The position numbers and the translations under genes are program-made. The notes under the pieces are model-generated. The model was not told where the DNA came from and ran no database searches. It saw only the letters and a list, made by a program, of their open reading frames with translations. Shown in pieces: positions 39,866 through 45,104 of a stretch of 64,000 nt of DNA (position 1 is its first letter; the number at the start of each line of letters is the position of its first letter). The DNA comes from Myxococcales bacterium. Lineage in GTDB: Bacteria; Myxococcota; Bradymonadia; UBA7976; UBA1532. Location: the NCBI GenBank assembly GCA_020633515.1, contig JACKDM010000022.1, forward strand, positions 1 through 64,000, written 5' to 3'.

Positions 39866-40926
39866 TCCGCCCCCTCCTCGTCGCCGCGCTCACGCTCACC
39901 GCCTGCGGCCCGAGCGCCGAGCAGATCGCCACCCGCCAGGCGCTCGACCGCCGCTACCTCGACGCCGAGCGCGCCGCCGACACCGGCGACCGCGACCGCG
40001 CCTTCGAGCTCTTCGCCGCCCTCGCCCGCGACCCCCGCGCCGACGCCGAGCTCCGCGCGCTCGCCCGCCACCGCCAGGGCCAGCTCCGCGCCCGCCAGGG
40101 CCGCCGCGACGAAGCCATCGCGCTCTTCGAATCCGTGCACGACGACCCCTCCCGCGAAGCCCTCGCCGCGCTCGACCGCGCCGCGCTCCACGACGACCGC
40201 GCCACCCGCCGCCGCGCCACCCTCGCCGTCGCCGAACGCTGGCCCGCCACCGCCGCCGCCGAGCTCGCCCTCGAACAGCTCGCCACCACCGCCACCCCCG
40301 CCGAGGCCGCCCCCGAAGCCGACGCCCTCGCCGCGCTCGCCGCCGCCCACCCCGACGCCATCGGCGCCCCCGCGCTCTGGTTCAAGGCCTGGCTCGAGCT
40401 CCGCCGCCTCGGCGACCTCCCCGCCGCCCGCGCCACCCTCCGCAAGCTCACCCGCCGCCACTGCTGCGCCGTCGCCACCCACGACGCCCTCTGGCTCCTC
40501 GGCGCGATCTACACCCGCCAGGGCGCCTACGACCACGCCATCCGCGCCTTCCAGAGCCTCGCCGACACCCACCCCGACCGCGGCCTCTTCCCCCCCATCG
40601 GCTCCGCCCGCGCCATCCGCGCCGACGACGCCGCCCTCGCCGCCGGCCGCGTCGCCCTGCACGGCAAACGCGACCCCGCCGAAGCCATCGAGCGCCTCAC
40701 CGCCGCCCTCGAAGCCTTCCCCGACGCCCGCACCGCCGACGACGCCCGCTACACCCTCGCGCTCGCCCACGCCGCCGCCGGCCACCCCGACGCCGCCCGC
40801 GCCGCGCTCGACCGCCTCCTCCGCGACCACCCCCACAGCCGCCACGCCCAAGCCGCCCGCGCCGCCCTCGCCGGCGCCCCGCTCCCCGGCCCCGACCCTC
40901 ACACCCTCACCGACCTCACCCCGTGA
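39862..40926 (+). CDS. TPR-repeat lipoprotein
   Basis: 354 residues with a TTG start overlapping the aldolase stop (TTGA). Short signal sequence with lipobox LTAC (Cys15). The mature part is TPR-like throughout, with repeats such as DRDRAFELFAALARDPRAD and GAYDHAIRAFQSLADTHPD and a last GHPDAARAALDRLLRDHPHS repeat, reminiscent of BamD or YbgF-type lipoproteins. Its stop overlaps the start of the first lipid-transport ATPase gene. It may serve as a periplasmic scaffold for that transporter, an inference from position only. Confidence 0.65.
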
Positions 40927-41654
40927 TCCGCCTCGACCACGTCAGCAAACGCTACGGCCCCGCGCTCGTCCTCGACGACGTCAGCCTCACCCTCCCCCCA
41001 GGCGGCACCCTCGGCCTCGTCGGCGCCGGCGGCGCCGGCAAGAGCCTCGTCCTCAAGCTCCTCTGCGGCCTCATCAAACCCGACACCGGCCACGTCTGGC
41101 TCGGCGACACCGAAGTCAGCGCCCTCGACGAACGCCGCCTCATGACCCTGCGCGAACGCATCGGCATGGTCTTCCAGAACTACGCCCTCTTCGACCACCT
41201 CACCGTCGCCGACAACATCGGCTTCCCCCTCGCCCAGATGGCCCGCCCCCCCGCCGAGATCACCACCCGCGTCGCCACCCGCCTCGCGCAGGTCCACCTC
41301 CCCCACATCGGCCCCCTCTACCCCCGCGAGCTCAGCGGCGGCATGAAGAAGCGCGTCTGCCTCGCCCGCGCCACCGTACACGACCCCCCCATCATGCTCT
41401 GCGACGACCCCACCGCCGGCCTCGACCCCGTCACCACCAACCGCATCTTCCGGCTCCTCAAGGACCTCCAGGCCCAGAACGCCGCCACCGCCATCATCGT
41501 CAGCCACGAGACCACCTCCCTCGAACCCATCTGCGACCACCTCGCGCTCCTCGACCACGGCCGCCTCATCCACGCCGGACCCACCGCCGAAGCCATGCAG
41601 CACCCCGCCGTCCATGCCTTCATGACCGGCCACGCCGCCGAGCCCCTGCCATGA
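40923..41654 (+). CDS. mlaF: Mla/MCE-type transporter ATPase 1 (Walker B Glu replaced by Asp)
   Basis: 243 residues, GTG start overlapping the upstream stop. Walker A GAGGAGKS (34-41), Q-loop MVFQNYALFDHLT, normal signature LSGGMKKR (137-144) and H-loop SHE fit the MlaF group that energises phospholipid transport with MlaE permeases. The Walker B end reads MLCDDPTAGLD: the catalytic Glu is Asp (residue 162). Taken with the altered signature of the second ATPase at 43202, this predicts a heterodimer in which the site made by this Walker B and the partner's signature is weak. The downstream permease overlaps by 4 bp. Confidence 0.88.
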   Translation: MIRLDHVSKRYGPALVLDDVSLTLPPGGTLGLVGAGGAGKSLVLKLLCGLIKPDTGHVWLGDTEVSALDERRLMTLRERIGMVFQNYALFDHLTVADNIGFPLAQMARPPAEITTRVATRLAQVHLPHIGPLYPRELSGGMKKRVCLARATVHDPPIMLCDDPTAGLDPVTTNRIFRLLKDLQAQNAATAIIVSHETTSLEPICDHLALLDHGRLIHAGPTAEAMQHPAVHAFMTGHAAEPLP

Positions 41655-42421
41655 CCGCCGCCCTCGCCCGCCTCGGCGGCGCCGTCGTCGACCTCTGCCG
41701 CACCCTCGGCGCGCTCGTCCTCTTCTGCGCCGCCACCCTCCGCGCCGCGCTCCGCCTCCGCCTCGACGACCGCGAGACCTGGCGCAACCTCCACCGCGTC
41801 GGCGTGCGGTCGCTCCCCATCGTCATCATCACCGCCTTCTTCGCCGGTGGCATCGCCGCCATCCAGGTCAGCACCTATGTCATCAAGTACCGCGCCTACG
41901 AAGCCGTCGGCTGGGGCTTCGGCTTCGTCACCTTCCGCGAGCTCGGCCCCCTCCTCGTCGGCCTGATGTTCTCCGGCCGCGTCGGCGCCCACAACACCGC
42001 CGAGCTCGGCACCATGCAGGTCACCGAACAGATCGACGCGCTCCGCATCCTCGCCATCGAACCCATCGAGTACCTCGTGTTGCCCCGCATCTTCGCGATG
42101 GTGCTCATGATGACCCTCCTCAATGTCATCGGCGACGTCTTCGCGCTCGCCGGTGGCATGATCACCGCCTATGCCATGGTCGGCGTCGACCCCTATGTCT
42201 TCTGGAACTCCTTCACCGAGTACGTCCGCCTCGTCGACTTCCTCAACGGCCTCGTCAAAGCCGGCGCCTTCGGCCTCGTCATCGGCGTCGTGAGCTGCGC
42301 CTTCGGCCTCGACGTCCGCGGCGGCGCCCCCGGCGTCGGCCGCGCCGTCAACAACGGCGTCGTGCTCTCGGCGGTGGGCATCTTCCTCTTCGACTACCTC
42401 ATCACTGCGGTGCTGCGATGA
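41651..42421 (+). CDS. mlaE: MlaE-family permease 1
   Basis: 256 residues. Typical MlaE landmarks: a cytosolic N-terminal amphipathic stretch, a membrane helix (IVIITAFFAGGIAAIQV), the conserved RELGPLLVGLMFSGRVGAHNTAELGTM segment with the coupling motif EQIDALRI, and three more helices. With an MlaF ATPase and an MCE protein it forms an ABC transporter that moves phospholipids between inner and outer membranes. A second, different MlaE gene starts 10 bp later, so the two may form a heterodimer. Confidence 0.92.
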   Translation: MTAALARLGGAVVDLCRTLGALVLFCAATLRAALRLRLDDRETWRNLHRVGVRSLPIVIITAFFAGGIAAIQVSTYVIKYRAYEAVGWGFGFVTFRELGPLLVGLMFSGRVGAHNTAELGTMQVTEQIDALRILAIEPIEYLVLPRIFAMVLMMTLLNVIGDVFALAGGMITAYAMVGVDPYVFWNSFTEYVRLVDFLNGLVKAGAFGLVIGVVSCAFGLDVRGGAPGVGRAVNNGVVLSAVGIFLFDYLITAVLR

Positions 42422-44002: not shown

Positions 44003-44069
44003 TGCGCCGTGACATTCTCCGGCCAGTTCGGCTAAACCAGCCCCTCGACCTCTGACAGGAGCCCATCGC

Positions 44070-45104
44070 GTGGCCGACGACGGCATCAAGATCAAGGTCG
44101 GCGCCCTCGTGCTCGTCGCCATCGCGCTCCTCATCGGCTTCGTCGCCCTCCTCGGCACCTTCTCCGTCGGCGACCGGATCACCCTCTACGTCGAGCTCTC
44201 CGACTCCGGCGGCCTGCTCGCCGGCGCGCCCGTCCGCATCGCCGGCGTCCGCGCCGGCCGCGTCGACGCCGTCGAGTTCTTCCCCGACGCCACCACCGCC
44301 CGCACCGACGGCCCCCGCCCGGTGCACGTCCGCCTCACCGCCGAGGTCGACGCCGAGATGTTCCCCGCCGTGCGCCAGGACTCCGAGTTCTACGTCACCA
44401 GCCAAGGCGTGCTCGGCGAGAAGTACCTCGAGATCCGCCCCGGCTCCCCCGCCGCCGCCCCGCTGCAAGCCGCCGCCGCCGTCCGCGGCCGCGACCCCGC
44501 CCGCATCGACCTCATCTTCGCCCGCGCCGAGAGCATCCTCGCCCAGATCGAGCTCGCGCTCTCCGGCGGCGGCCAGCTCGGCGTCGGCGCGCTCGTCGAC
44601 AACATCACCCGCCTCTCCGGCCGCGCCAACGCCTACCTCGACCGCCACGACGAGGCGCTCGAACAGGCCACCCGCGACCTCGTCGCCACCGGCGCCGACC
44701 TCCGCGCCATCACCGCCGCGCTCCGCGCCGGCATCGGCAGCGGCGAAGAGGTCGCCGCGACCATGCGCGACCTCACCGCCATCGCCCGGATCCTCGCCCG
44801 CGAGGCCGGCCCCCTCGCCCGCGTCGGCCGCGACGCGCTCCAAAACCTCCAGACCGCCTCGGCCGAGGTCAACCGCCTCATCGAGATCGTGCGCCCCCCC
44901 CTCGAGGCCGTGCTCGCCGATCTGCCCGCCATCACCCGGAGCGGCCGCGAAGCCCTCCGCGACACCGCCGCGATCACCGCCGCGATCACCGCCGGGCAGG
45001 GTGTCATCGGGCAGGTCATCGTCGACGACGAGATCTACGCCGACCTCAAGGAGCTCCTGCGCGACATCAAGCGCAACCCGTGGAAGCTCGTCTGGCGCGA
45101 GTAG
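44070..45104 (+). CDS. mlaD: MlaD-like MCE-domain substrate-binding protein
   Basis: 344 residues, GTG start. One N-terminal membrane helix (about residues 10-31), then an MCE domain (about 38-130) with the usual LSDSGGLLAGAPVRIAGVRAG opening and YVTSQGVLGEKYLEIRPG close. A helical C-terminal part with coiled-coil character (150-320) is longer than in E. coli MlaD (183 residues in all) and could form a tunnel, as in YebT or Mce proteins. It supplies the periplasmic lipid-binding ring of the transporter encoded just upstream. No MlaC or MlaB gene is seen in the cluster. Confidence 0.9.
   Translation: MADDGIKIKVGALVLVAIALLIGFVALLGTFSVGDRITLYVELSDSGGLLAGAPVRIAGVRAGRVDAVEFFPDATTARTDGPRPVHVRLTAEVDAEMFPAVRQDSEFYVTSQGVLGEKYLEIRPGSPAAAPLQAAAAVRGRDPARIDLIFARAESILAQIELALSGGGQLGVGALVDNITRLSGRANAYLDRHDEALEQATRDLVATGADLRAITAALRAGIGSGEEVAATMRDLTAIARILAREAGPLARVGRDALQNLQTASAEVNRLIEIVRPPLEAVLADLPAITRSGREALRDTAAITAAITAGQGVIGQVIVDDEIYADLKELLRDIKRNPWKLVWRE

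Follow-up and report, generated by a model that had tools for sequence, protein, structure and literature searches.

In a 64,000-nucleotide stretch of DNA from a Myxococcales bacterium (GenBank assembly GCA_020633515.1, contig JACKDM010000022.1, positions 1 to 64,000; hereafter the window), five tightly packed plus-strand genes at 40923-45104 encode two MlaF-like ATPases (F1 and F2), two MlaE-family permeases (E1 and E2) and an MCE protein (D), in the order F1, E1, E2, F2, D. Judging from the sequences, it is highly probable that F1 and F2 pair as an obligate heterodimer, in which one site holds ATP and the other hydrolyses it, and which serves as the motor of a lipid transporter of the Mla/Mce type (type VIII). 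The two unlike nucleotide-binding domains (NBDs) carry sequence lesions that all map to one composite site of the predicted dimer. An initial annotation of this DNA had proposed a heterodimer with one degenerate site, and the comparisons between genomes described below support that interpretation.

F1 (ATPase 1; 40923..41654; 243 aa, GTG start) and F2 (ATPase 2; 43202..44002; 266 aa) are both predicted ATP-binding subunits that match Pfam ABC_tran. F1 has an intact signature and a degenerate catalytic dyad (Walker B Glu and H-loop His). Its motifs are GKS at residues 39-41, LSGG at 137-140 (41331..41342) and DDPT at 161-164, where D162 (41406..41408) occupies the position of the catalytic Glu and aligns to E182 of F2. 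The H-loop His of the window protein, H195 (41505..41507), is intact; at this position other F1 proteins carry Ser, Thr, Asn or, in one case each way, not a His but Gln. F2 has the reverse arrangement, with a degenerate signature and an intact dyad: GKS lies at 53-55, VGDG (157-160; 43670..43681) replaces LSGG, and DEPT at 181-184 contains the catalytic E182 (43745..43747), while H215 (43844..43846), the H-loop His, falls in an invariant alignment column. In the F1/F2 alignment ELSGG stands opposite DVGDG and CDDPT opposite FDEPT. The coordinates and residue numbers of the initial annotation (F1 LSGG137 and D162; F2 VGDG157 and E182) were exact, and its argument that the paired changes share a composite site holds both in this alignment and in the orthologues, where both halves of the pattern are present in 116/117 genomes.

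The permeases E1 (41651..42421; 256 aa) and E2 (42432..43205; 257 aa) both match PF02405, with 236 and 185 bits respectively, and lie between the ATPase genes as two unlike MlaE proteins, as first described. F1 and F2 are 33% identical and E1 and E2 36%, so that each is an unlike pair. The F1/E1 and E2/F2 genes overlap by 4 bases. The last gene, D (44070..45104), encodes a 344 aa MCE (MlaD-family) protein with a PF02470 match of 60 bits, above the cut-off of that family. The G+C content of the window is 74%.

A genome scan returned 80 loci, of which 28 were kept as relatives (L001-L027 and L031). F2 was found at E <= 1e-90 in 117 of the 282 genomes of the phylum of L002 (Myxococcales bacterium). 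Since the profiles used for F2 were themselves derived from F2 sequences, an F2 with a canonical signature would have scored somewhat lower, and a bias is possible; the cut-off is far below typical F2 scores. From the same 282 genomes we fetched the regions round F2 matches and selected F1 matches among the matches listed. Many of the genomes are drafts, and phylum names are inferred. In total, 321 distinct ATPase domains were aligned and placed on a tree from which the signature, Glu and His columns had been removed, replacing an earlier sorting by profile score. Because these columns were masked, the F1 and F2 labels are not circular. The two window proteins fall in the groups of their own kind. 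The F1 group comprised 121 tips (support 0.915). The F2 group comprised 139 tips (support 0.864), or 138 after one sequence was set aside: L286, a basal Bacteroidota protein with an ISGG signature, which was treated as a canonical single-ATPase outgroup. Counted per genome, F2 was present in 126, F1 in 120 and both in 117.

In all 117 genomes with both ATPases the F2 signature is degenerate and the F2 Glu and His are intact. F1 shows the opposite pattern: its signature is SGG in 116 genomes and AGG in one, and its dyad is broken in 116/117, by Asp for Glu in 75 and by replacement of the H-loop His (Ser, Thr, Asn) with Glu kept in 41. The individual dyads are Asp/His (71), Asp/Ser (2), Asp/Gln (1), Asp/Asn (1), Glu/Ser (35), Glu/Asn (4), Glu/Thr (2) and intact (1). 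The change from Glu to Asp is therefore not the sole F1 lesion, which refines the initial annotation; another lineage keeps the Glu and loses the His. This second type of lesion makes the same-site argument stronger, and the presence of both halves in 116/117 genomes argues that the pattern is not due to chance. The co-occurrence of the substitutions in orthologues, proposed as a check in the initial annotation, was thus confirmed, and an orthologous pair in which both ATPases are canonical was seen neither in the 117 genomes nor in three more on recheck.

The tree groups give the same picture. Among the 121 F1 tips the signature is xSGG in 120 and LAGG in one, and the dyads are Asp/His (76), Asp/Gln (1), Asp/Ser (1), Glu/Ser (40), Glu/Thr (1), Glu/Asn (1) and intact (1). 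All 121 F1 tips keep GK[S/T], the Q-loop Gln and the Walker B Asp; in the Ser-bearing lineage the fourth P-loop residue, normally Gly, is Ala (once Glu). The F2 clade retains Glu and His in 138/138 and has SGG in 0/138. Its signatures are GDG (111), GPS (8), SDG (5), GAG (4), GPG (4), GPP (2) and APS, GHG, GQG and SAG (one each), so that the signature Ser is lost in 132/138 and kept in six (SDG, SAG). By a simple pattern search, 111/120 listed F2 relatives have I/V/L-GDG or VGEG, and the remaining nine gave no such reading.

We also considered the arrangement within loci. F1, two permeases and F2 were all in reach at 65 loci (the window included, with a few genomes counted twice). In 65/65 the F2 signature is degenerate with Glu and His intact, and in 65/65 F1 has SGG (one AGG) together with a changed Glu or His. 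F1 and F2 lie on one fetched locus in 71/117 genomes and not in the other 46, some of which are split by contig breaks; the pattern holds in the 46. In six genomes (G002, G010, G030, G049, G077 and G221) F1 with one permease, F2 with D, and a permease that is E2-like by score alone were observed on three contigs, and all parts are kept. Most loci have a single MCE gene.

The control ATPases lack these lesions. Glu and His are retained in 66/66 other MlaF-like ATPase domains, and these also keep the signature Ser (SGG 51, STG 8, SNG 4, SSG 2, SIG 1). A few of these control domains were fetched twice, and many of the loci were hand-picked among the matches listed; the set excludes the hand-assigned F1 proteins, seven ABC ATPases below 190 bits (Glu and His present) and those of the window itself. 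In genomes outside the 117 with F2, four MCE loci (L251, L262, L268 and L271) have two permeases and one ATPase, a layout like that of mycobacteria, and the ATPase is canonical. Degeneracy thus tracks the presence of two ATPases, not of two permeases.

The permeases likewise fall into two clades, which contain 127/127 first-position and 111/111 second-position proteins (supports 0.632 and 1.0). E1 and E2 sit together within a 259-tip group (support 0.999) that excludes the single MlaE proteins of the set.

The arrangement was also found in a second phylum, that of L056 (Deltaproteobacteria bacterium), where E-E-F2 occurs in at least 7/97 genomes, as read from the best 8 matches, its signatures including LGAG, LGPG, LGHG and LGQG. 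F1 was found in six of these seven (in five away from the F2 locus), with His changed to Asn or Thr and once with Asp too; no F1 was found in the seventh, G296. Nine other MlaF-like ATPases fetched from second-phylum genomes were canonical. No F2-type ATPase was detected in the best 8 of 50 matching genomes (58 searched) in the phylum of G284, the best 8 of 27 (299 searched) in that of G290, the best 8 of 14 (149 searched) in that of G287 or the single matching genome (5 searched) in that of G286, and plasmids gave no match at E <= 1e-60.

Two further kinds of MlaF-like ATPase were noted in passing. In the phylum of a Silvanigrellales genome, 8/8 single-ATPase loci examined (L298-L305) have LSTG, with Glu and His intact. 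Fused double MlaF-like ATPases occur at L197 (4528-6195), L195, L196, L270, L365 and L369; domain 1 has LSGG or ISGG and domain 2 ISNG, ISSG or ISAG, with Glu and His intact in both. No MlaE match was found at these six loci, and the L197 gene lies downstream of PBP2- and RodA-like genes.

These patterns are consistent with a single ABC lipid transporter in which F1-F2 would sit on E1-E2 beneath a ring of D. In a head-to-tail F1-F2 dimer, the degenerate site would be built from the Walker A, Walker B and H-loop of F1 and the signature of F2, and the consensus site from the Walker A, Walker B and H-loop of F2 and the signature of F1, its positions kept but for one AGG. Since F1 keeps the Walker A Lys, the Q-loop Gln and the Walker B Asp, the degenerate site should bind ATP and may hold the dimer together; this latch role is proposed by analogy with heterodimeric exporters. 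The consensus site would carry out one hydrolysis per cycle, driving a change in the E1-E2 permease by which lipid is handed to the MCE protein or taken from it. The data themselves establish the gene content, the fold assignment, the conserved complementary lesions and the genome-by-genome pairing of the two genes. We infer the physical heterodimer, the retention of ATP, the single hydrolysis per cycle, the lack of hydrolysis at the degenerate site, the lipid substrate and the direction of transport.

Several observations weigh against this heterodimer reading. The pairing of F1 with F2 is itself deduced from sequence, and in sequence comparisons several importer ATPases match F1 at least as well as MlaF does. 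In one genome, G252, neither the Glu nor the His of F1 is changed; the F2 signature there is degenerate (FGDG), and the F1 D-loop reads GRD, where all 120 remaining F1 tips have GLD. For 6/117 genomes (five of the second phylum and G246) the F1 assignment was made manually on profile matches; without them the count is 110/111. One hand-assigned protein, L273, falls outside the F1 group of the masked tree, and the Asn-bearing F1 proteins fall outside the F1 group on a second tree. When the nine F2-only genomes were rechecked, F1-like proteins were found in G004 (Glu, Ser), G123 (a fragment; Glu, Ser) and G138 (cut by a contig end; Asp, His not visible), and no F1 was found in G108, G167, G186, G188, G191 and G296, where the matches inspected proved to be F2, single ATPases of canonical type or fused double ATPases. 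The genomes are also related, so that 117 is far from a count of independent cases, and the independent events number far fewer than the genomes; parsimony on the masked whole tree gave 6 steps at Glu and 6 at His. A mirror-tree comparison of F1 and F2 gave r 0.83, whereas 500 permutations reached 0.10 at most (126 pairs, some genomes twice), but it was set aside as evidence of contact because vertical inheritance suffices to explain it. Lastly, Asp at the catalytic position is reported to be able to sustain slow hydrolysis (PMC7756269), and the degenerate site may therefore be weak rather than dead.

This last point speaks for an F1-F2 heterodimer that hydrolyses at both sites, its substitutions being tolerated variation without functional asymmetry. 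The Glu-to-Asp change is conservative and compatible with slow turnover (PMC7756269), and the Walker A GK[S/T] and Walker B Asp of F1 are kept throughout the clade. Tolerated variation would, however, have to fall in one site only, sparing Glu, His and signature at the other, and it would have to include both the second lineage, without the H-loop His, and the 132 F2 proteins without the signature Ser. We therefore regard two active sites as improbable, though less so than the other alternatives.

It is very unlikely that the cluster encodes two homodimeric transporters side by side, F1 with E1 and F2 with E2. Such a division is suggested by the six genomes in which F1 with one permease, F2 with D, and the third, E2-like permease all lie apart. 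However, an F1-F1 dimer would have two broken dyads and an F2-F2 dimer two broken signatures, when the other MlaF-like ATPases examined retain Glu and His; in seven split genomes with longer flanks D lies beside F2 with no permease within the stretch fetched; and most loci have a single MCE gene. As either homodimer would be poor in both sites, a heterodimer with one hydrolysing site is the most likely arrangement. Hardly credible, finally, is a role for F1 as a regulatory pseudo-ATPase that occasionally partners an F2-F2 transporter: F1 does bear catalytic lesions, branches apart from a group that unites F2 with other MlaF proteins and was not found in six genomes with F2, but the F2 homodimer would have a degenerate signature at both sites, the retention of the F1 signature would go unexplained, and E1 and E2 are likewise paired and unlike.

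Returning to the heterodimeric transporter, the assignment to the Mla/Mce type was made on gene content: an MlaE-family permease, an MCE protein and an MlaF/MceG-like ATPase are all present, and lipid transport is predicted on that basis. The AlphaFold model of F1 (pLDDT 93.3) has as its nearest solved folds the ATPase of the Mce1 complex (8fed) and MlaF (6xgy), and the best solved relatives of F2 by sequence are Mla ATPase chains. Against the assignment, the top sequence matches of F1 are ATPases of other importers. Both ATPases score under the MlaF equivalog cut-off of 441 bits. For the permease family NCBIfam TIGR00056, E1 is above the cut-off and E2 below, and D matches TIGR00996 (Mtu_fam_mce) with 66 bits, below the cut-off. 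The model of D has a helix at 3-30, strands at 36-139 and helices at 146-340 (low confidence), with a mean pLDDT of 62.5 and pTM of 0.40; as it is poor beyond the MCE domain, a needle is no more than a possibility. No MlaB (STAS), MlaC or MlaA was found among the six cluster proteins scanned with Pfam.

Upstream of F1 and overlapping it by 4 bases is a TPR lipoprotein-like gene (39862..40926, plus strand; TPR_6 and YfiO Pfam matches, with YfiO/YbgF-like repeats). Given this overlap, the transcript possibly starts farther upstream than the initial annotation gave; the gene is a possible first member of the transcript and a putative member of the transporter. On the opposite strand of the window lie a canonical ABC ATPase (36595-37314; LSGG, DEPT), to which L001, L139, L148, L204 and L245 have a similar gene a few kb upstream of F1, and a DUF3105 protein (45123-46034) whose N-terminal half contains a run of VEADLA repeats. 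Clustering of the open reading frames (ORFs) round 116 F2 loci revealed no partner family common to most; the largest cluster was present in 39/116 loci, and a threonine-aldolase-like gene in nine, including the window. With no common neighbour family, the substrate cannot be read from context. At 14/116 loci an ORF of about 220 aa lies between E2 and F2 (L007:4798-5457 and 13 others). No Pfam family matches the L007 copy, which to the eye begins like a signal peptide; it is possibly an outer-membrane barrel.

We next compared the predicted transporter with known systems. In open-access literature, no heterodimeric ATPase of a Mla/Mce system appeared in the titles or abstract starts among the matches listed; subscription papers and preprints lie largely outside this search. 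The main text of a survey of Mla components across bacteria does not contain the words heterodimer or Myxococc (PMC10665443). The direction of Mla transport is itself disputed (PMC10212509, PMC7500953). On balance, we lean towards a broader reading, in which the cluster represents an ancient branch of MCE transporters (F2 in 117/282 genomes of one phylum and at least 7/97 of another) whose motor and permease are unlike pairs and permanently asymmetric; its ATP-latch site would be kept by selection via at least two chemical routes, and a single hydrolysis per cycle would give a one-way lipid drive. With the symmetry of both motor and permease broken, such a natural relative would make each half accessible to mutation and labelling on its own.

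MlaFEDB of E. coli and relatives shares with this cluster the MlaE-family permease, the ABC ATPase and the MCE-domain protein. MlaF is a homodimer, and the complex has the stoichiometry MlaF2E2D6B2, with identical ATPases and identical permeases (PMC7367683, PMC7790496), whereas here both are unlike pairs and one ATP site is degenerate, so that the cluster is not E. coli-type MlaFEDB proper. In addition, D has 344 aa with a predicted helical tail, compared with 183 aa for E. coli MlaD (PMC10665443). Mycobacterial Mce1 likewise has two unlike MlaE-family permeases and an MCE domain followed by a long helical region, the latter predicted here. In Mce1 a YrbE1A/B heterodimer sits on an MceG homodimer, with six different Mce proteins, Mce1A-F (PMC9882608). 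With the MlaF homodimer (PMC7367683), this agrees with the description of known systems in the initial annotation. The mycobacterial layout is thus not that of the window, where two ATPases and two permeases accompany one MCE gene, not one ATPase and six Mce proteins.

Two different ATPases on two different permeases are also found in the peptide importer DppDF, and OppDF is likewise a two-ATPase peptide importer; peptide importers differ from the present system in having no MCE protein. E. coli DppD and DppF are reported to bind and hydrolyse ATP together (PMC12136057).

A parallel for the motor is offered by degenerate-site exporters (human ABCB2/B3, the ABCC family and Pdr5; TM287/288 and BmrCD), which share the confinement of lesions to one composite site. 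They have a membrane-domain fold other than MlaE, and differ from the MlaE/MCE system described here. In these exporters the signature of one NBD and the catalytic Glu or H-loop of its partner are altered, all within one composite site (PMC7756269). The F1-F2 pair would provide an evolutionary test of this design, with different lesions in the same site, and would extend to an MCE lipid transporter an arrangement best known in exporters.

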